A program made the translations under genes and the position numbers. From contig SVTF01000001.1 of the NCBI GenBank assembly GCA_015063905.1, positions 57,431-121,430 of the forward strand: a stretch of DNA of 64,000 nt, in the 5' to 3' direction. Origin of the DNA: Oscillospiraceae bacterium (GTDB lineage: Bacteria > Bacillota > Clostridia > Oscillospirales > CAG-272). Below, one piece after another: positions 32,262 to 49,087 of the stretch (positions are counted from its first letter, which is position 1; the number at the start of each line of letters is the position of its first letter). Under the pieces are notes generated by a model. That model had not been told where the DNA came from. It worked only from the letters and a program-made list of their open reading frames with translations, and did not search any database.

Positions 32262-32365
32262 GATATTTTTGGCATTTTTTATTGTTAATATATACCTTTT
32301 TCATGCTTGGAAAAAGAATAGGAGCAACAACCGTGCCAATCGATCGTTGCCCTATACATATTATC

Positions 32366-33679
32366 CTATTGTGTTTTACATAGCTTTGATGCGATAAATT
32401 TCGCCATCAATTCTCTGCCCTTTGCGTTTGGATGTGTACCGTCCGTATTGGAAAAATATTCTGTTCTATTGAGCTTATTTATTCCAAGCTCATAATAGTT
32501 ATCTATGTATGCAAGACCGTATTCTTCGGATATCTCCTTTGTCCTAGCCACAAAATCGGTAAGAATAAATTTTCCAACTTTTTTCGTGTCAGAATCTTCA
32601 ATAAAACCGCCTTCACTGTCTACCCAAAATCGGTAAGTCTGAGAACATACATAGATCTGTATATTCGGATATGCCTCGAGTATAGTTTCTATACTATATC
32701 TCATTGCACCGCCAAATTTGGTAACGTCATAAGGGTCATCACTGTTTTCAAGCGATTTCCAACCCGTAAAATCGTTTGTTCCGTAAGAAATAGTTATTAT
32801 GTCGACCTTTGAAAAGTCAATTGATTTCAAGGTGGCTAATGCTTCATCAAAATACCAAGGCAATTCTATATCTGCATTCATATCAAGCGCAGAATCCTGA
32901 ACCGAATAATCATTGTTAGCTACGGCATAGGCAAGCCTATACATACAAAATGCATCGTAATTATCCAGAGAATGCGATGCCATTCTGCATCCGCCAAAGC
33001 CACAGTTATAGACGGTAGCGCCTGTATAACTTGCTAAAAATGCCGATATACTGTCTTCGCCCCGATAGTTGCCAAATATGCTATCACCAAAATTGACAAC
33101 AACTTTGTTTTCTAATAACGATGACGGCAGATCACTTGCTTCTTCCTCGGTGGTGGTTTCTTCCGCCGTGGTAGTTTCTTCCACCGTGGTGGTTTCTTCC
33201 GCCGTGGTAGTTTCTTCCACGGTGGTAGTTTCTTCCACGGTGGTAGTTTCTTCCGCCGTGGCAGTTTCTTCCACAGTGGTAGTTTCTTCCACAGTGGTAG
33301 TTTCTTCCACGGTGGTAGTTTCTTCGACAGTTGCCGTTTCTTCCACAGTGGTTGTTTCTTCGACAGTTGTCGTTTCTTCCACAGTGGTTGTTTCTTCGAC
33401 AGTTGTCGTTTCTTCCACAGTGGTTGTTTCTTCCACAGTTGTCATTTCTTCAACCGTGGTGGTTTCTTCTGCCGTGGCGGTTTCTTCGACTGTGGTGGTT
33501 TCTTCGACTATGGTTGTTTCCTCAACCGTGGTTATTATTTCAACATTTATAGTTTTATCGTTAGTTTTTGCCGAGGTAGTAGTTTCAGTCTGTGTTTCAT
33601 TTGCGCTGTTACACGCAGAGAAAATGGGTAAAACAAGAGCCAAGACCAGAACAAGTGCTACAAGAGGTATTCTTCTCAT
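32366..33679 (-). CDS. Secreted lipoprotein with Thr/Glu repeat stalk and SGNH hydrolase domain
   Basis: 437 residues from ATG 33679, with GGAGGGAG upstream; the track's 24 extra residues are unsupported. A lipoprotein signal peptide ends in FSAC at about residue 23. A stalk of 22 TTVEET-like hexads follows (about 50-181). The SGNH/GDSL esterase domain comes last: VVNFGDSIFG (catalytic Ser), GFGGCRMAS, SYGTNDFTG and DGTHPNAKG (Asp, His). The family includes esterases, lipases and carbohydrate deacetylases, so a role in trimming acetyl or acyl groups from surface or dietary glycans is plausible but not shown. The stalk would hold the enzyme away from the membrane. Confidence 0.88.
   Translation of the reverse strand: MRRIPLVALVLVLALVLPIFSACNSANETQTETTTSAKTNDKTINVEIITTVEETTIVEETTTVEETATAEETTTVEEMTTVEETTTVEETTTVEETTTVEETTTVEETTTVEETATVEETTTVEETTTVEETTTVEETATAEETTTVEETTTVEETTTAEETTTVEETTTAEETTTEEEASDLPSSLLENKVVVNFGDSIFGNYRGEDSISAFLASYTGATVYNCGFGGCRMASHSLDNYDAFCMYRLAYAVANNDYSVQDSALDMNADIELPWYFDEALATLKSIDFSKVDIITISYGTNDFTGWKSLENSDDPYDVTKFGGAMRYSIETILEAYPNIQIYVCSQTYRFWVDSEGGFIEDSDTKKVGKFILTDFVARTKEISEEYGLAYIDNYYELGINKLNRTEYFSNTDGTHPNAKGRELMAKFIASKLCKTQ
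33137..33532 (-). repeat. Tandem 18-bp repeat coding TTVEET hexads (22 units)
   Basis: About 22 in-frame 18-bp units encode TTVEET with variants ATAEET, TTAEET, TIVEET and TTVEEM. Synonymous codons vary between neighbouring units, so the array is not freshly duplicated, yet some blocks are identical. Loss or gain of units keeps the reading frame. Confidence 0.93.
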
Positions 33680-33710
33680 TGTTATCTCCCTCCAAAAAAT
33701 GCGTGACTTG

Positions 33711-33739
33711 ATTATAGCACTTTGATCTTCGTTTGTCAA
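33711..33739 (-). promoter_or_regulatory. Full-consensus promoter of the SGNH lipoprotein gene
   Basis: TTGACA (33734-33739), 17 bases, TATAAT (33711-33716) on the - strand, TG-extended -10: a perfect match to the sigma-A consensus. The -35 directly follows the terminator of the upstream gene. Confidence 0.88.
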
Positions 33740-33775
33740 GAAAATTATCACCCCTCCGCATAGGAGGGGTGATAT
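33740..33775 (-). terminator. Terminator of the leucine-rich repeat lipoprotein gene
   Basis: TATCACCCCTCC pairs with GGAGGGGTGATA (12 bp, 5-base loop), followed on the - strand by AATTTTCTT. It starts about eight bases after the stop at 33783. Confidence 0.88.
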
Positions 33776-33782
33776 TGCTTTA

Positions 33783-36700
33783 TTATTCTTCGGGAACGTA
33801 GTTATACGTCATCGTGAGGTGATAATAGTCGCCTACATTTCTTATAAGCTCATCCCATTCTTGTTGCGTTCCCTCATAGTAGATGTGGGAGAAGGTGCCG
33901 TAATCCGACAGATACGTATAGAAACCTCTGTCTCCTATATAGGTCACACTCTTTGGCAGTATCACGCTCTCAAGGCTCTCACACTGCACAAACGCATTGC
34001 CTGAAACAAATTTTGTACCACTATTTACCTTACACGAGATTATTGCCGTATCCTTTGCCTTTACGAGCACAAGATAAGGATTCTGTTCGTTTCCAAGATA
34101 ATAGCCGTTGTCATATGCGTTAAGCTCAAGACTTGTACAACCCATAAACGCTCCATCGGCAATGCTTGTAACACTGTTCGGGATAGTTAGACTCGCAAGG
34201 CTTGTGCAATTCACAAACGCACAGGTTTTGATAGTTGTAACACCTGTGGGAATGGTCAAGCTCTTAAGACTTGTGCAATCGGCAAAGGCGTGCTCTCCAA
34301 TGCTGGTTATGCCGTCGGGCAGATCTATGCTTTCAAGAGCGTAACAACCGCTGAACGTGCTACCGTTTATTACGGTCACACCGTTTGGAATGTTTATGTT
34401 CTTAAGATTTTCGCATGCGCAGAATGCGTCAGCCTCTATACTCGTTACGCCATCTGGAAGGACTATAGTTTCAAGATAGCTACAACCGTAGAACGCGTAT
34501 CTTCCAATTGTTGTAACGTCGCTTGGAACAGTAAAGCTATTTGCTGTTTTTGCTATCGGGTAGTATACCAACGTTTTGCCGTCCTTGGTATAAAGGATCC
34601 CGTCCACCGACTTATAGGCTGAATTGTTAGCGTCAACCGTTACACTCTCAAGGCTATTACAAAGATTGAACGCACCCACTCCAATGTCGGTTACGCCCGA
34701 GCCTATAGTTATGCTTGTAATTCCGTTGCAAGAAAGGAATGCCCAATCTTCTACAGTAATAACCGAGTTGGGAATAGTCACGCTCTTAAGGCTTGAACAA
34801 CCTTCAAATGCATCTGTGCCAATACTTTCAACACTATCGGGGATGGTTATCGTTTCAAGCTCTTTACACCACAAGAACGCGTTCGCGCCAATGTTTTTCA
34901 GTTTGCTATTCTCTGCAAAAGATACACTTGCAAGGCTAATGCAATTCTGGAATGCGCGTTCACCGATGCTTTCAACGCTTGCGGAAATACTTATGCTAGC
35001 TAGATTTTGGCAACTGTAAAACGCGTCCTTACCAATGCTCTTGACACCCTCGGGAATCGTTACAGTATTAATATATCTGCAATTATTGAATGCATAATCG
35101 GGAATGCTTTGTATTCCTGACGGAAGAACGAGATCGGTAATCAGCGTACCGTTGAGATACAACTCGCCGCTTCCCATTCCCATTGGTGTGGATGTGTCAT
35201 TCGCAAACGATATACCGCACCAAGCCGAAAGATCACTGATATACACCTTGCCGGAATAATAAAACCAAAACGCATTCTTATTGACAAACTTTAAGCTCTT
35301 GGGAATAGTTATACTACCCTCGGAGTTTGTGCAATGAGCGAAAGCGTAACATCCTATAGTGACAACACCTTCAGGGATAACTACGTCTTTAAGGTTGCTG
35401 CAGCTCTCGAAAGCCCGATCGTATATGATCTTTGTTGCAGAATTTATCTGACACGATACGATATCCTTGTCCTTTGCTTTCATAAGGATAACGTAATTAT
35501 TCGTCGTGTTTCCGAGATAATATGCGTTGTCGTATTCATATAAATTCAGACTATCACATTTTTGGAAGGCATCCTGACCAACACTTTGGATCTCGTTCGG
35601 TATGTTTATATTCTCAAGCTTTTCGCAATAGGCAAAGGCAGAGTTGTCAATCACCTTTATATTATCAGGAATAACTATGCTCTGAAGACTGTGGCAGTCC
35701 TTGAACATCTCTTTAGTTATACTCGTAATGCCGGTGGGAATATTTACGGTCTTTAAGCTTTTACACATGAAGAATACGGCTCTTCCCATATTTGTAACGC
35801 TATTTGGAATAGACACGTTATCAAGCATTTCACAGTACGAGAACGCACAATCTCCTATGGTTTCCGTTTTGCTTGAAAACGTAACACTTTCAAGACGTTT
35901 GCAATGGATGAATGCCTCTTTTCTGATCTCGACTATACCCTCGGGGATAGCCACTGTTTTGAGCATTGTACAGTCCTCAAACGTTTCCTCGTCAATATAG
36001 GTCATCTTACTTGACAGTGTAACACTTTCAAGCTTATAGCAGCACTTGAATGCGCCGATTCCGACGCTTGTCACGCTGTTTGGAATAACCACGCTCAAAA
36101 GCTCCTTGCAGTTAAAGAAAGCATGCTTTCCTATGCTTGTGACGGACTCCGGTATATCTATTTCGGTAATACCCCAGCAGTTATAGAATCCGCCCTCATC
36201 TATGGTAGTCACGCTATTAGGAATGATGATCTCGTTGATAAACGCCGCGTCGTGGAATGCGTAAAAGCCAACAGTGGTAACGCCTTGAGGAATGGAAAAC
36301 GAAGCAGACGTTGTTCCCGTTCTGCACGTAGGATATTTGATCAAAGTTTTACCGTCCTTTGAATAAAGCACGCCCGATACAGCTTTATACGCTGCATTTT
36401 GCTCGTCAACCGTTATAGTTTCAAGTCGCTTGCAATTGCTGAACGCATGATTGCCTATACTGCTTACGGATGCGGGCAGATGTATCTCTGTTATGTATTC
36501 ACAATAGAAGAATGCACCTACACCTATATTTGTTACAGTATTGGGGATAGAAACCGAAACAATATCGGATTCATAAAAGAATGCCTCATCGCCTATCGCG
36601 GTTACGGGCAAGCCCTTATATGTTGCGGGAATGACTATGTCAGCCGAGGTGCACGTTCCGATTCCCGTTACTGACCAGGATTCTCCGGCCTCGTTTAGAG

Positions 36701-37169
36701 TATACTCCAATTCCTCAACTTCCACCTTCTCTGTTTCGGTCTCGGTCGTCTCATTGGACGTTGTTTCCTCTGCCGTGGTTGTTTCTTCGACTGTAGTCGT
36801 TTCCTCAACTGTAGTCGTTTCCTCAACTGTAGTCGTTTCCTCAACTGTAGTCGTTTCCTCTGCAGTTGTCGTTTCCTCAACAGTTGTCGTTTCCTCAACA
36901 GTTGTCGTTTCCTCAACAGTTGTCGTTTCCTCAACAGTTGTCGTTTCCTCAACTATAGTCGTTTCCTCTATCGTTGTCGTTTGCTCAACTGTAGTCGTTT
37001 GCTCAACTGTAGTCGTTTCCTCAACTGTAGTCGTTTGTTCGGTAGTTGTGTCTTTATCCTTTTTGGGTTCATCTTGGTCCTTATCATTAGCATTGGGGCT
37101 ACATGCCGCCAAAGCGGGCAGGCACACTGCCAAAACAAGAATAAGCGCTAAAATCGATAACTTTTTCAT
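33783..37169 (-). CDS. Secreted lipoprotein with Thr/Glu repeat stalk and BspA-like leucine-rich repeats
   Basis: 1128 residues. A lipoprotein signal peptide ends LAAC at residue 23. A lysine/aspartate patch is followed by a stalk of 16 TTVEET/TTVEQT hexads (about 41-136). A long array of LRR_5 (BspA/TpLRR) repeats of about 23 residues comes next, each of the form 'AFxxCxxLxxVxIPxSVTxIG', from about 160 to 1095. Three interruptions carry YLGN...YVILMKAKD-type inserts, and the array ends IYYEGTQQEWDEL, a common LRR_5 terminus. BspA-like proteins often bind host matrix or other cells. The ribosome site AAGGAGG precedes the ATG. Confidence 0.92.
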   Translation of the reverse strand: MKKLSILALILVLAVCLPALAACSPNANDKDQDEPKKDKDTTTEQTTTVEETTTVEQTTTVEQTTTIEETTIVEETTTVEETTTVEETTTVEETTTVEETTTAEETTTVEETTTVEETTTVEETTTVEETTTAEETTSNETTETETEKVEVEELEYTLNEAGESWSVTGIGTCTSADIVIPATYKGLPVTAIGDEAFFYESDIVSVSIPNTVTNIGVGAFFYCEYITEIHLPASVSSIGNHAFSNCKRLETITVDEQNAAYKAVSGVLYSKDGKTLIKYPTCRTGTTSASFSIPQGVTTVGFYAFHDAAFINEIIIPNSVTTIDEGGFYNCWGITEIDIPESVTSIGKHAFFNCKELLSVVIPNSVTSVGIGAFKCCYKLESVTLSSKMTYIDEETFEDCTMLKTVAIPEGIVEIRKEAFIHCKRLESVTFSSKTETIGDCAFSYCEMLDNVSIPNSVTNMGRAVFFMCKSLKTVNIPTGITSITKEMFKDCHSLQSIVIPDNIKVIDNSAFAYCEKLENINIPNEIQSVGQDAFQKCDSLNLYEYDNAYYLGNTTNNYVILMKAKDKDIVSCQINSATKIIYDRAFESCSNLKDVVIPEGVVTIGCYAFAHCTNSEGSITIPKSLKFVNKNAFWFYYSGKVYISDLSAWCGISFANDTSTPMGMGSGELYLNGTLITDLVLPSGIQSIPDYAFNNCRYINTVTIPEGVKSIGKDAFYSCQNLASISISASVESIGERAFQNCISLASVSFAENSKLKNIGANAFLWCKELETITIPDSVESIGTDAFEGCSSLKSVTIPNSVITVEDWAFLSCNGITSITIGSGVTDIGVGAFNLCNSLESVTVDANNSAYKSVDGILYTKDGKTLVYYPIAKTANSFTVPSDVTTIGRYAFYGCSYLETIVLPDGVTSIEADAFCACENLKNINIPNGVTVINGSTFSGCYALESIDLPDGITSIGEHAFADCTSLKSLTIPTGVTTIKTCAFVNCTSLASLTIPNSVTSIADGAFMGCTSLELNAYDNGYYLGNEQNPYLVLVKAKDTAIISCKVNSGTKFVSGNAFVQCESLESVILPKSVTYIGDRGFYTYLSDYGTFSHIYYEGTQQEWDELIRNVGDYYHLTMTYNYVPEE
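36762..37049 (-). repeat. Tandem 18-bp repeat coding TTVEET hexads (16 units)
   Basis: About 16 in-frame units, variants TTVEQT, TTIEET, TIVEET, TTAEET and TTTEQT. It is the same hexad as in the SGNH lipoprotein but with different preferred codons, so the two arrays are not a recent copy of each other. Confidence 0.93.
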
Positions 37170-37222
37170 TTCTTTTCCTCCTTAAAATGAAAAAACGGAT
37201 GCACAGCTCAAGTCAAGTGCAA

Positions 37223-37255
37223 AAATGTTCGTTTTGATTGCGGAAACAAACATTT
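37223..37255 (-). promoter_or_regulatory. Leader hairpin of the leucine-rich repeat lipoprotein
   Basis: In the 160-base leader, AAATGTTTGTTT pairs with AAACGAACATTT (12 bp, one G-U) with a loop of about 9 bases, then T-rich sequence. It may be a weak attenuator or a stability element. Confidence 0.4.
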
Positions 37256-37337
37256 ATTGTTTAGAAACGAGTACGTATTCTATCAAACAATAAAAACTCC
37301 ATTTTGAAAGCTCAAATGATATTTATGCCGTAGCTAA

Positions 37338-37366
37338 ATTATAGCATCTATTCATCATTTTGTCAA
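37338..37366 (-). promoter_or_regulatory. Full-consensus promoter of the leucine-rich repeat lipoprotein gene
   Basis: TTGACA (37361-37366), 17 bases, TATAAT (37338-37343) on the - strand with a TG-extended -10. It is the same perfect consensus as for the SGNH lipoprotein. The start codon is about 160 bases downstream. Confidence 0.88.
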
Positions 37367-42043: not shown

Positions 42044-44038
42044 TTACTTATAAAAAATTACTTCAGTATCGGTGCTATCCGAGGTATCTGCAAAGCTTGC
42101 CAGGCGTTTGGCTCTTTCCCCGTCCGCCTCTCTTATATAGGATAGCAACAGTCCGACATTTGTCCAAAAAATGTACATCATTCCCTCATTTACCCATATG
42201 TTTGTTACAGTTCCGAGTATAAGAGAAACAATTATGCCGCACAAGAGCGCCAAGCCTATACTATGATCTTCATTCTGATTAGCTTTCGTGAAGCATCTGA
42301 AGCTGCGCTTAATAAGAAATACGATAAACAAAATGAAGGACATAAGACCGAAAATTCCCGACCAACACAATATCTGCAACCAAACAGACGCGCTGAAAAC
42401 GTCTGCGCATGACAACGTTGTTGAATATCTCGGAAGCACCGCCTCAAGTGCATGAGCTCCCGCGCCTATGCCGGACAGATTTCCGTCAAATATTATATCG
42501 AATATGGTTTTTGCCGCTTCCGTATTAACTGAGGAGCTATGCAATCTTATGGGCATGTATTCCCCAAGGATGCTTGAAAGATCGGGCCAACCAAAATTTG
42601 ATATTGCGAATGGATAGAGCATTACTGCGATCATGATTGGAATGGCAGCCATTATCAGCACGTTGAGAGATTTGTGACTATAGATCAACCAGAATACAAA
42701 GCACTCTATGATCAATGCCGCAACGATCTCATATCGCGCGCACATCCAGCAAGCCACAAGTGTGATCATACTTGCGATCACCATCGTAACAACTCCCTTT
42801 ACACTCTTTTTACTTGTAGCGTACGCGAATATTATCGGGAACACCATCACAGCCAATATACCAAACGCCTCTCCTCCATCCAGCACTGTCATAACGTCAA
42901 CGTGTGACAGATTGGATAGATGCTCACTTACAGGATCTGACATTCGATGCTCTATTCCATTATAGAATCCATCCCATATTCCTATTATAGAGCAAATTAT
43001 CAGCAAAGACATAAGCGTCTTGACACAGATCTTTATTCCCTTTTTTGATGAAATAAGATTATACGTGAGGAAAAATCCGCCCGCAGTCATTATCACATAG
43101 GATATTGCATCGTTCAACACAGTCACTCCGCCCAAAGTAAAGATACTTCCCGCGAAAATGAATGAGCAAAACAGGAATACCATGGTAAGCTCCGGACTGA
43201 AGTCCATAGATCTCCGCCTTTGTATAAGCTTTAATAGGTATGAAGCGGAGGTTATCAGTATCATGATAACAAGACCGGTTTTCGTCATCCCTGCGTATTG
43301 TAAAAAAGGAACTGCGACTATCGTCAATATAACTCCCGCCTCGGGATTGGAGAATATGAGATATATTCCGATTACACACAATAGCGCAACGGGCGCATAC
43401 CACTGTCCAAGGAAATGAGCCAATATTCCAGAGGCTATCGCAGATATGACCGCGAACAGCACGTATTGCTTTCCGCCGTATTGCTTGGTATTCTTGAGCT
43501 TTTCTTCGGGAATATCAAAGAAATCAAGCACTACCTTTCTCATTATTCTGCTTTTGGCAATAGCACCCGTTGCAGACTGAGTTGAGAACAGGAGCGGAAG
43601 CGAACAAACGGCAATTATCGCCGACGATATTATTACGTTCAAGTTTTTTGAGGCAATAATGCTTTGTCCATCCATCAGCACGATTATATAGTGTGCGATC
43701 GCGGACGTCAATCCGTAAAAGGTGAAAAACGTACCGTAAACGTTGAGTCGAAGATAAGCGAGAACTTTGCCAAAACCCGACAGCATGCGAACTATCACAT
43801 TTTTGCTCAACGAACGGGACAAGTTGAGTGATGCGATATTTATTTTCGCCTTGTTTCTGTTAGAGAAGCTCTGTGCGAGAAAGCTCCTTCTGCAATATGT
43901 ATTTTCATCAGACATGCTTTCGCCTACTCTGCCAAAGATAAAAAGCGAATACAAAAACGCAGTAAATCTATCCAGCATTTGCCACAAAAATGAGCCTGAC
44001 CTGTTTCTTTTCGGTCTAATTCTCTTTTCTCTGTCCAT
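42044..44038 (-). CDS. O-antigen-ligase-like (Wzy_C) polytopic membrane protein
   Basis: 664 residues with about 12-14 membrane segments after a basic N-terminus. A larger loop at about 365-395 and another at about 500-555 (WPDLSSILGEYMPIRLHSS...GIGAGAHALEAVLP) resemble the periplasmic loop of Wzy/WaaL-type proteins, which join glycans to each other or to a carrier. GAHALE could stand for the family's G(x)H motif. The ribosome site AAAGGAGG is strong. It follows trmD by 30 bases and precedes two DUF4330-like genes. Glycan polymerase or ligase function is inferred from topology. Confidence 0.7.
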   Translation of the reverse strand: MDREKRIRPKRNRSGSFLWQMLDRFTAFLYSLFIFGRVGESMSDENTYCRRSFLAQSFSNRNKAKINIASLNLSRSLSKNVIVRMLSGFGKVLAYLRLNVYGTFFTFYGLTSAIAHYIIVLMDGQSIIASKNLNVIISSAIIAVCSLPLLFSTQSATGAIAKSRIMRKVVLDFFDIPEEKLKNTKQYGGKQYVLFAVISAIASGILAHFLGQWYAPVALLCVIGIYLIFSNPEAGVILTIVAVPFLQYAGMTKTGLVIMILITSASYLLKLIQRRRSMDFSPELTMVFLFCSFIFAGSIFTLGGVTVLNDAISYVIMTAGGFFLTYNLISSKKGIKICVKTLMSLLIICSIIGIWDGFYNGIEHRMSDPVSEHLSNLSHVDVMTVLDGGEAFGILAVMVFPIIFAYATSKKSVKGVVTMVIASMITLVACWMCARYEIVAALIIECFVFWLIYSHKSLNVLIMAAIPIMIAVMLYPFAISNFGWPDLSSILGEYMPIRLHSSSVNTEAAKTIFDIIFDGNLSGIGAGAHALEAVLPRYSTTLSCADVFSASVWLQILCWSGIFGLMSFILFIVFLIKRSFRCFTKANQNEDHSIGLALLCGIIVSLILGTVTNIWVNEGMMYIFWTNVGLLLSYIREADGERAKRLASFADTSDSTDTEVIFYK

Positions 44039-46518: not shown

Positions 46519-49023
46519 TTATTCTGCGGGAGGGACAAAGGTAAGTCCTTTGATATAAGCGGTATCGTTGTAGCTGGACACCGAGCTATCCTTGGAATAT
46601 TCAAATTCAATAACGTCTCCCGCATTAACGGCAATATCGTATGTTTGATACGCCGTATCTCCGGAGCAAGAGATTAAGACTTCACCGTTTTTATACACAT
46701 AAAGCATATCACAGCCTGACTCAGAAGATGTTCTGTACTGGAAGGTGTAATGACCGTCAGCGGTGGCCACAACGTGATAATACGCCTTGGTGTATTCGAC
46801 GTACTGATTGTTAGAAGTAAGAACGTCTACGGGGTTGTTGTAGTCATCGTACTCTACCGATGTATCGAAGGAGTATCCGGAATCCGAAACATACTCTTCA
46901 AAATGAAGGTCTCTGATGTATGCGCAGTCATTTTCGTACGAATTCGAATAATCCTTTATATACTTGAACTCAATAACGTCACCCTTATACACCTTGATCT
47001 TAGCGTTCACGTAACTGTCATTTGATCCCGAACGGGACAACTCACAATAATCGTTAACGTACACCTCAAAATAATCGCACGAATCGGAGGAAACCAGATA
47101 GTCAAAAACGAGATATCCAAAATCCGTGGCTGTAACCGTATAATAAGCCGTGGAATTGTCGACTCCCTTATTGTTGGAAACAAGAATTTCTACGGTATCT
47201 CCGTTATCGTTAGTTCCCATCGTTTCGTCAAAGCCGTATCCGTAGGGGTTAGACTCATCCAATTCCTCAAAGGTAAGGCCACTGATATATGCCTGGTCAT
47301 TACCGGAATCTCCCGAGCTATCCTTAGAATAGAAGAATTCAAGAACGTCACCCTCGTAAACTATAACGGTACACATCTCATAGGATGTCTCTCCCGAGCA
47401 GTAGAACAACCTATCGCTCGAGCTATTTACGCATGCCCAGAATTGATCCCAACCGGACTCGGATGAAACTCTGTAGTAGAACGTGTAGCGACCGTAAGTG
47501 GGAGCTACCACTCTGTAATAAGCCGTTGATCCACTAATGCCTTGATTGTTGGAAACAAGAACATCGGCACTGACACTTTCGTCCTGCTCAAAGCCGTATT
47601 CATATCCCCAGTTGTCATCGGGAGCGATGGTTTCTGTACTGTCAGTCGTGTCAGTTTCCACTGTGGACTCTCCATACTCATCGAAGCGAAGGCCCTTGAT
47701 ACGCGCGCAGTCGGCGCCATACGAATTAGAACCGTCTTTTTCATACTTGAACTCGATAGTGTCTCCCTCTTCGACCTCAAGCTCAAACCATTGATAATTA
47801 TAATCCTCTCCGGAGTGACGTAAAACGGTCATGCCGTTATGAATTACGTAGAATACATCATATGAGCTTTCAGAAATAACCTTGTAGTCGAAACGTAGGT
47901 ATCCGTCGTAGGGAGCCTCTACCATCATATACGAGCAAGAGCTGTTTACGTTGTCGTTGGTAGATATAAGAATTTCTACGGAATTTCCATTTTCATCAAC
48001 TGATTGTGTTTCAACAACGAACTCGTATTCGCGTTCGTCCGTACCAGTAGTTTCAGTAGTCTCAGTAGTCTCACCATCGTCATAGTCGGTGATCAAAGCG
48101 AGGGGGACATAGTAATAATCGTTGTCGCAGAACACCTTGCCCCATTCATTGTCATCACTTACACCTACAATGTCAAGGATATATCCGTAACCAACGTTCC
48201 AATACTCGGATCCGTTGCCATAATACAAAATAGTATCGTTGTATATGGTTATAACCTTACCATAGTAATCATAGTAATTGAGCTCGCCGGGGGCTACGTT
48301 AGCGCCCGTTGTCTCCTCATTGGTATCAATGCCTGAGAATATATCTTCCCACTCAAAAATGCCATCATTGCAGTTAAATTCCAGACCATCGTTTGCGATT
48401 ATAACGTTATTGAAAAGCGCAACGATCTGATCAAGCGATCCGTGATATGTGATCTCGTAAAGATCATAGCACGAACGGAATGCCGTGGAACAAATAACCT
48501 TTGTATCCTGATGCACCTCGCAGATCGACGCACTCATGTCTGATACCATTATCAGCAAAACGTACGGATTGCTCTTATTTCCCAGATAAAGCGCATGATC
48601 GTACTCATTGTAAGCAAGGCTGTAACAACCGTCAAATACGTTGTTACCAATGCCCGCAAGATTTTTGGACAGAGAAACATCCTTGAGATTAGGGCAGTCT
48701 TTGAACGCACTGTCACCAATATAGGTCACGCTATCGGGGATGGTTACCTTTTTAAGCTTTTCAAGCCCCTCGAATGCGGAAGGCGCAATCTGTGTTACTG
48801 CCTTTTTCTTATACTTCTTTGGAATCGTGATCGTTTTTACATCCTCGTCATCAATTGCAACGACCGCATACGTTCCGTCATCAAGCTTTTGGTATTCTAA
48901 TCCTTCTGTTCCCTCGTCTTCGGATTCTTTTTCGTCCTTGTCAGAACCAAAAATATTACACGACGAAAGAACCAAGATCAAGCACAACAACAGCGACAAA
49001 AGCGCTAAAGCTCTCTTTTTCAT
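46519..49023 (-). CDS. Secreted multidomain lipoprotein: leucine-rich repeats, SH3-like segment, four tandem modules
   Basis: 834 residues from ATG 49023. A lipoprotein signal ends LSSC near residue 22, followed by an acidic linker. Three or so LRR_5 repeats (AFEGLEKLKKVTIPDSVTYIG, about 85-150) and a partial fourth come next. A tyrosine-rich segment at about 240-320 (YGNGSEYWNVGYGYILDIVG) resembles bacterial SH3. A TETTETTGT linker leads to four modules of about 100 residues. Each has VEILxSNN, AYYxVxAxxxGxYxFxYxxSSES, an SG turn, VxxGDxIEFxYxKDxS and AYIxGLxF, probably beta-sandwiches. I do not recognise the module; carbohydrate or protein binding is a guess. The gene has its own promoter. 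Confidence 0.85.
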   Translation of the reverse strand: MKKRALALLSLLLCLILVLSSCNIFGSDKDEKESEDEGTEGLEYQKLDDGTYAVVAIDDEDVKTITIPKKYKKKAVTQIAPSAFEGLEKLKKVTIPDSVTYIGDSAFKDCPNLKDVSLSKNLAGIGNNVFDGCYSLAYNEYDHALYLGNKSNPYVLLIMVSDMSASICEVHQDTKVICSTAFRSCYDLYEITYHGSLDQIVALFNNVIIANDGLEFNCNDGIFEWEDIFSGIDTNEETTGANVAPGELNYYDYYGKVITIYNDTILYYGNGSEYWNVGYGYILDIVGVSDDNEWGKVFCDNDYYYVPLALITDYDDGETTETTETTGTDEREYEFVVETQSVDENGNSVEILISTNDNVNSSCSYMMVEAPYDGYLRFDYKVISESSYDVFYVIHNGMTVLRHSGEDYNYQWFELEVEEGDTIEFKYEKDGSNSYGADCARIKGLRFDEYGESTVETDTTDSTETIAPDDNWGYEYGFEQDESVSADVLVSNNQGISGSTAYYRVVAPTYGRYTFYYRVSSESGWDQFWACVNSSSDRLFYCSGETSYEMCTVIVYEGDVLEFFYSKDSSGDSGNDQAYISGLTFEELDESNPYGYGFDETMGTNDNGDTVEILVSNNKGVDNSTAYYTVTATDFGYLVFDYLVSSDSCDYFEVYVNDYCELSRSGSNDSYVNAKIKVYKGDVIEFKYIKDYSNSYENDCAYIRDLHFEEYVSDSGYSFDTSVEYDDYNNPVDVLTSNNQYVEYTKAYYHVVATADGHYTFQYRTSSESGCDMLYVYKNGEVLISCSGDTAYQTYDIAVNAGDVIEFEYSKDSSVSSYNDTAYIKGLTFVPPAE

Positions 49024-49087
49024 TACCTTTTCTCCCTTGAATTTATTATTTTGGTATGCTAAATGGTTTCGATAAGCCTCCAATATA

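Follow-up and report, generated by a model that had tools for sequence, protein, structure and literature searches.

The window analyzed here is a 64-kb stretch of DNA from a gut-type Clostridia bacterium, and it contains two neighboring minus-strand genes that encode lipoproteins with (TTTVEE)n stalks. The first is an SGNH-hydrolase lipoprotein gene (32366..33679, minus strand) encoding 437 amino acids, for which the likely start is the ATG at 33679, preceded by a GGAGG ribosome-binding site. A GTG-extended open reading frame was rejected, as the extra part is non-coding and lies upstream of the likely ribosome-binding site and ATG. Inspection shows a signal peptide with a lipobox (FSAC; 33611..33622, minus strand), in which Cys23 follows “IFSA” and the F at position -3 is non-canonical. 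The stalk (33140..33532, minus strand) consists of ~22 TTVEET hexads spanning residues 50 to 180, as defined by unit comparison and by TRF, which reports a period of 18 and 21.8 copies. The SGNH catalytic domain (32369..33127, minus strand) was identified by Pfam (PF13472 at 47.5 bits, cut-off 32.9; PF00657 at 38.2 bits, cut-off 23.6), alignment, AF2, and Foldseek.

The second gene (33783..37169, minus strand) encodes a BspA-type leucine-rich repeat (LRR) lipoprotein of 1128 amino acids. Its signal peptide, also read by inspection, carries the canonical lipobox LAAC (Cys23; 37101..37112, minus strand). The stalk has ~15–16 hexads (36763..37036, minus strand) by unit comparison and TRF (period 18, 15.2 copies), and the BspA-type LRR_5 domain (33786..36700, minus strand) matches PF13306 at 676 bits (cut-off 27.7) in nine stretches. 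With 256.6 bits against a cut-off of 1250, the protein falls below the NF047961 (HupY/LrrG) equivalog level. There are about 19 LRR_5 genes in this genome, or ~1% of its genes. Elsewhere in the window, 46519-49083 encodes a long lipoprotein with an LSSC lipobox, a short ETTETTETTG linker, a single BspA LRR_5 module, and no other Pfam match. Pfam, the lipoboxes, and TRF agree with the first-pass annotation of this DNA, which had described two adjacent lipoproteins, SGNH and BspA LRR, on a shared hexapeptide stalk.

The same annotation had assigned each gene a perfect sigma-A promoter, and a motif scan bears this out. Both promoters read TTGACA-N17-TATAAT with a TG ahead of the -10 element (33711..33739 for the SGNH gene and 37338..37366 for the BspA gene, both minus strand). 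They are the only 12/12 sigma-A matches in the 64 kb, where 0.04 are expected, and none of 100 shuffled windows contained two. A third gene with this type of stalk, described below, has TTGACT-17-TATAAT upstream, as read by eye. The BspA promoter leaves a 5′ leader of ~160 nt (37170-37337) with A/T-rich stem-loops. The leader has no Rfam match above threshold, its fold is not unusual (z of -1.5), and the sub-threshold Rfam hits in the region were discarded as chance matches. A hairpin scan found one terminator-like hairpin after the SGNH gene (32322..32352, minus strand) and a strong one of 12 pairs between the two genes (33746..33774). Since the strong hairpin separates them, the SGNH and BspA genes are neighbors but probably not a single operon.

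Conservation of the gene pair

The SGNH gene sits between coaD and uvrB. These two genes adjoin in 7 of the 11 other genomes of the genus, with a gap of 0.66–2.0 kb; in the others, a different downstream gene or a contig end makes the interval unreadable. In the seven readable intervals, the gap contains a small membrane protein, in some cases with a cytidine-deaminase-like gene or another small lipoprotein, and no homologue of the SGNH or BspA gene. From this synteny, the SGNH and BspA genes appear not to be ancestral at the coaD-uvrB site. The small membrane protein of the congeners (L163, L165-L168, L170, and L173) is multi-pass, has a Thr/Glu tail in some genomes (e.g., ETTAEETQAE), and is missing here in the window genome. 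Another gene of the window, at 42044-44038, encodes a 664-amino acid protein that has no Pfam match and is syntenic in the genus at 30–41% identity. Its neighbors (HPr, uvrB, and a tRNA methyltransferase) are at about 79–95% identity, which marks it as a fast-evolving gene in a conserved position.

Outside the window, a BspA-LRR gene adjoins an SGNH-clade gene at two of ~14 other cellular loci, in genomes G394 and G198. The LRR neighbor in G394 is a secreted, apparently non-lipidated protein with a 741-codon LRR frame, and that in G198 combines LRR and SLH. Neither is a stalked lipoprotein, and the genes are not arranged alike, in order or in orientation, in the window, G394, and G198. The chance probability of two adjacent loci is ~0.01–0.03 with 7 loci and 0.03–0.09 with 13 loci, depending on the base rate and on how loci are counted. 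The recurrent adjacency is suggestive, but as a post hoc observation it is too little to establish a system. Neither the readable congener intervals, which lack the pair, nor the few loci at which the adjacency recurs give clear support to treating the pair as a unit, as had been proposed from the window alone.

The Thr/Glu stalk

In both stalks, every unit-to-unit step is exactly 6 amino acids, and the units are TTTVEE with A, I, E, or Q variants. A dN/dS-like comparison between units gave ratios of non-synonymous to synonymous change per site of 0.137 for the SGNH array and 0.147 for the BspA array. Non-synonymous change is far below synonymous change in both, and therefore the peptide is constrained and maintained. 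Pfam LED_rpt and NCBIfam acyltransferase-like matches over the stalk were below cut-off and were rejected as low-complexity artefacts. Long antisense open reading frames over the stalks, which read as SSTVVV repeats, were rejected as mirror artefacts of the repeats.

The (TTTVEE)n repeat occurs in three genes of this genome. The third encodes a lipoprotein on contig C34 (G000:C34, L061) with an LISC lipobox, ~18 hexads, and a small unrelated domain for which no Pfam model scores above its cut-off. At this locus (L061, 4658-5689 and 6854-7840), the stalk lipoprotein is accompanied by a downstream, unanchored paralogue of its domain. The SGNH and BspA arrays have no 18-bp unit in common, share at most 17 bp, and differ in the codons that they prefer for Thr, Val, and Glu. 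On these grounds, the possibility that one neighbor recently acquired a copy of the other’s stalk was rejected. The BspA and C34 arrays have one 18-bp unit in common. With almost no DNA sequence in common, the three arrays appear to have expanded independently of one another.

The number of TTVEE units varies among paralogues and species, the window species being represented by one genome. BspA paralogues with nearly the same leader (MKKLS-L-ALIL...AAC) have 0, 1, 1, or 15 units. Other surface proteins of this genome have Thr/Glu-rich linkers of different composition, such as ETT(APDEETT)n, (TTE)n, and EETTDVTTETSE. Taken together, the three cargoes, the range of 0–15 units in paralogues, and the other linkers suggest that the stalk is one of many low-complexity spacers, grown by in-frame duplication.

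The first-pass annotation had suggested a genome search for TTVEE-stalk proteins. In the window genome, the search recovered the SGNH and BspA heads as well as a third, unrelated domain. Stalks of this type were present in only 3 of 98 genomes, including that of the window, so that a wide distribution in the group was rejected. In a congener (G003), the stalk of a BspA protein is shorter and degenerate. In G036 (L121, G036:C20), a different, very large surface protein has many TTVAET/TTAEET-type repeats, mostly TTVAET, and represents another independent Thr/Glu-type stalk. The further claim that the shared stalk defines the pair is not supported, given the third, unrelated cargo, the BspA paralogues with 0, 1, or 15 units, and a sister of the SGNH protein that has a collagen-like stalk.

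Relatives of the SGNH domain on phage tails and cell surfaces

The GDS, G, GTND, and DGTHP blocks are all present in the SGNH domain of the window (GDS16, G43, GTN118D, and D229GTH232). Across the clade (15 sequences), the Ser, Asn, Asp, and His show no variation, and the Gly shows almost none. The AF2 model adopts the SGNH alpha/beta fold with a pLDDT of 94.6. A Foldseek search with the model matched GDSL proteins with E values down to 2.7e-12, and also Est24, CE2, and sialate O-acetylesterases. From the residues and the model, the domain is predicted to be catalytically intact. Two findings would have counted against the first-pass annotation, an inactive SGNH domain or a stalk carried by unrelated domains only; the stalk is on the SGNH and BspA heads, and the catalytic residues are intact.

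Genes of the SGNH clade are rare: at scan thresholds of E 1e-25 to 1e-30, they turned up in 8 of 394 genomes at the level of the order, in 10 of 395 at that of the family, and in 10 of 391 at that of the class. The sister of the window domain is in a lipoprotein of G394, a genome from another genus, at 64% identity and with a support of 99/93. The stalk of this sister is collagen-like (GXX) instead of TTTVEE. The next kin are C-termini of tail proteins, both from phages (22 IMG/VR loci) and from prophages (in G079, G081, G147, and others), and such C-terminal domains make up most of the relatives found. The window protein (P0001) matches PHROG 5240, “tail fiber protein,” at 5.9e-18, which establishes homology to tail SGNH proteins; the aligned span of this match is inflated by the stalk, and the head alone retrieves the same relatives. 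The window protein itself does not belong to a phage gene cluster as a component of a virion tail; it is encoded by a lipoprotein gene between coaD and uvrB.

In the tree, the window domain and the G394 sister group next to tail domains of IMG/VR phages (support of 99/95 and 97/87). Phage and cellular members interdigitate, and the well-supported branches force at least five switches, the direction of which is not given by the tree. A single cellular clade was rejected (p-AU of 2.4e-7, long branches removed). The labels “phage” and “cellular” derive from N-terminal architecture and source collection, and a few of the phage rows are possibly decayed prophage. Within G147, six tail-type genes (L217-L222) end in a domain of the SGNH clade and several have almost the same N-terminal domain; this set is possibly a case of receptor-binding protein diversification.

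Cellular members are mostly surface-anchored, by different means, as judged by eye. The sister in G394 has a lipobox and its collagen stalk. Lipoboxes are also found in G198 and in G014, G561, and G485, and an SLH anchor is found in G461. Membrane-helix anchors occur in G198, G592, G523 (recurrent in genus g4), G577, where the helix is followed by a Thr/Pro linker, and the genomes of family f52. An orthologous lipoprotein of genus g4 (G014, G561, and G485) is encoded within a capsule cluster with Polysacc_synt_2, Epimerase_2, CpsB/CapC, and Wzz. The more distant f52 members have membrane anchors, and their genes are found in surface-polysaccharide clusters together with NeuA/NeuB, MBOAT, or Acyl_transf_3 genes. 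One relative, at L116, is unanchored, and the gene next to it is probably a glycan-degrading one.

Proposed function and comparison with known systems

We propose, with moderate confidence, that the SGNH lipoprotein is a surface-tethered esterase that deacylates a surface glycan and sits on a replaceable, disordered spacer. On the tails of other phages, SGNH domains have either been demonstrated to be esterases or are predicted to deacetylate capsules (PMC13123978). It is the intact catalytic residues, the confident SGNH-like model, and these esterase domains on phage tails that make a surface-tethered esterase the best reading. The lipid would anchor the protein in the membrane, and the disordered Thr/Glu stalk of ~130 residues would let the catalytic head reach through and past the cell wall. 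We estimate a reach of ~30–40 nm if stretched (~132 residues at no more than 0.3 nm per residue), which is of the order of the Gram-positive wall and fits a membrane-anchored enzyme that needs to reach outside. The head would remove O-acyl groups, probably acetyl, from a cell-surface polysaccharide, most likely the bacterium’s own. The stalk would serve as a generic spacer of adjustable length, growing by in-frame duplication of 18 bp and being exchanged among proteins. We favor a spacer because the sister enzyme has another stalk, a third cargo exists, paralogues have 0–15 units, and the peptide is constrained while the codon histories are separate. The BspA-LRR lipoprotein would be a separately transcribed surface binding protein on the same kind of spacer, and a functional link between it and the esterase is possible.

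Three observations count against a surface-glycan esterase: no polysaccharide cluster lies beside the SGNH gene in the 64-kb window, the L116 relative has a different context, and the lipobox is slightly non-canonical. This genome encodes one Acyl_transf_3 protein that could supply O-acylation, although a single match is a weak sign of an O-acylated polymer here. The first-pass annotation had pictured a two-protein surface system that binds and deacylates a glycan. Its surface lipoproteins, its stalk, which is real and constrained, and its SGNH domain, which has all catalytic residues, are supported, and glycan deacylation is, by analogy with relatives that lie in capsule clusters or on phage tails, the likeliest activity; the shared stalk as the mark of a two-protein system is not supported.

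Alternatively, the esterase could act on exogenous glycans from diet or host, such as acetylated plant or mucin glycans, in nutrient scavenging. A gut-type bacterium with abundant surface lipoproteins, a fold like those of carbohydrate acetylesterases, and the unanchored L116 relative beside its probable glycan-degrading gene would all suit such a role. However, no glycoside hydrolase or transporter adjoins the SGNH gene in the window, and the nearest kin are phage-tail domains and surface proteins, several of them in capsule clusters. We consider scavenging unlikely, though it is the alternative that survives best.

More doubtful is a dedicated pair, in which the BspA LRR binds the glycan that the SGNH domain deacylates, both displayed at a matched height. 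The common stalk, the adjacency with its recurrence in G394 and G198, and the perfect-consensus promoters on both genes are what one would expect of such a pair. Yet BspA genes are abundant in these genomes, the adjacency is absent at most cellular loci, order and orientation vary in the three cases with LRR neighbors that are not stalked lipoproteins in G394 and G198, and the stalk carries a third domain as well.

We give still less credence to a phage-derived receptor editor. Here, the esterase domain would move repeatedly between the tips of phage tails and lipoproteins of the bacterial surface, where it would be mounted on interchangeable spacers and edit the same receptor that is the target of the phage enzyme. 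By deacylating its own surface glycan, the host would prevent adsorption of phages with matching receptor-binding proteins, as a surface-exclusion or receptor-remodeling device. The position of the window domain and its sister beside phage tail domains, the minimum of five switches, and the rejection of one cellular clade are consistent with this, but the tree gives no direction of transfer between phage and cell, no defence genes were noted nearby, and a tail esterase that needs an acylated receptor is only one possible logic. Finally, it is very improbable that the SGNH domain is an O-acyltransferase partner that adds acyl groups, as in MBOAT-SGNH pairs: distant members do lie near MBOAT and Acyl_transf_3 genes, but no acyltransferase lies beside the window gene, and the phage-tail kin have no acyl donor system, which indicates hydrolysis.

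Phage-tail SGNH esterases are increasingly recognized as a common route to capsule deacylation. A bacterial, surface-anchored branch of one tail-esterase clade, with its minimum of five phage/cell switches, provides a set of proteins for asking which side edits the receptor, and whether phage enzymes are put to new use by hosts on glycans of their own. The stalks form a natural experiment, with TTTVEE in the window protein, a collagen-like repeat in its sister, and three cargoes on one stalk type, suggesting that the reach of the spacer, and not its sequence, is what counts.

The SGNH domain of the window has its fold and catalytic blocks in common with CE2, Est24, and sialate O-acetylesterases, and is 13–24% identical to SGNH carbohydrate acetylesterases among the listed PDB matches. 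Like the phage SGNH receptor-binding proteins (Klebsiella prophage esterases, PMC13123978; PHROG 5240), phage members of the clade have an SGNH domain on a tail protein, as does the receptor-binding protein gp63.1 of E. coli phage G7C, as cited in PMC13123978. The clade members have it at the C-terminus of the tail protein; the likeness is one of domain type and setting, and O-deacylation of a surface polysaccharide is presumed for both. Unlike these tail proteins, the window protein is a chromosomal lipoprotein with a disordered stalk and without a tail-attachment domain. The BspA protein shares its LRR_5 domain with BspA-type LRR surface proteins (PF13306), including the HupY/LrrG adhesins (NF047961), from which it differs by its lipid anchor and (TTTVEE)n stalk.

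As in periscope proteins and fibrillar adhesins (PMC8201768, PMC9210967), a repeat stalk of variable unit number would project a functional head. As in carbohydrate-active enzymes with the DUF1735 lipoprotein spacer (PMC11216935), an N-terminal lipoprotein spacer precedes an enzyme domain. The spacers in all of these systems are folded domains, in tandem in periscope proteins, whereas the window stalks are 6-residue low-complexity units and are expected to be disordered. The SGNH esterase, BspA LRR protein, repeat stalk, and lipoprotein spacer are thus each of a known kind. In the open-licence literature we found no precedent for bringing these parts together, for sister enzymes in which one type of stalk has been swapped for another, or for a single esterase clade in which phage-tail members are mixed, with good support, with members from host surfaces.
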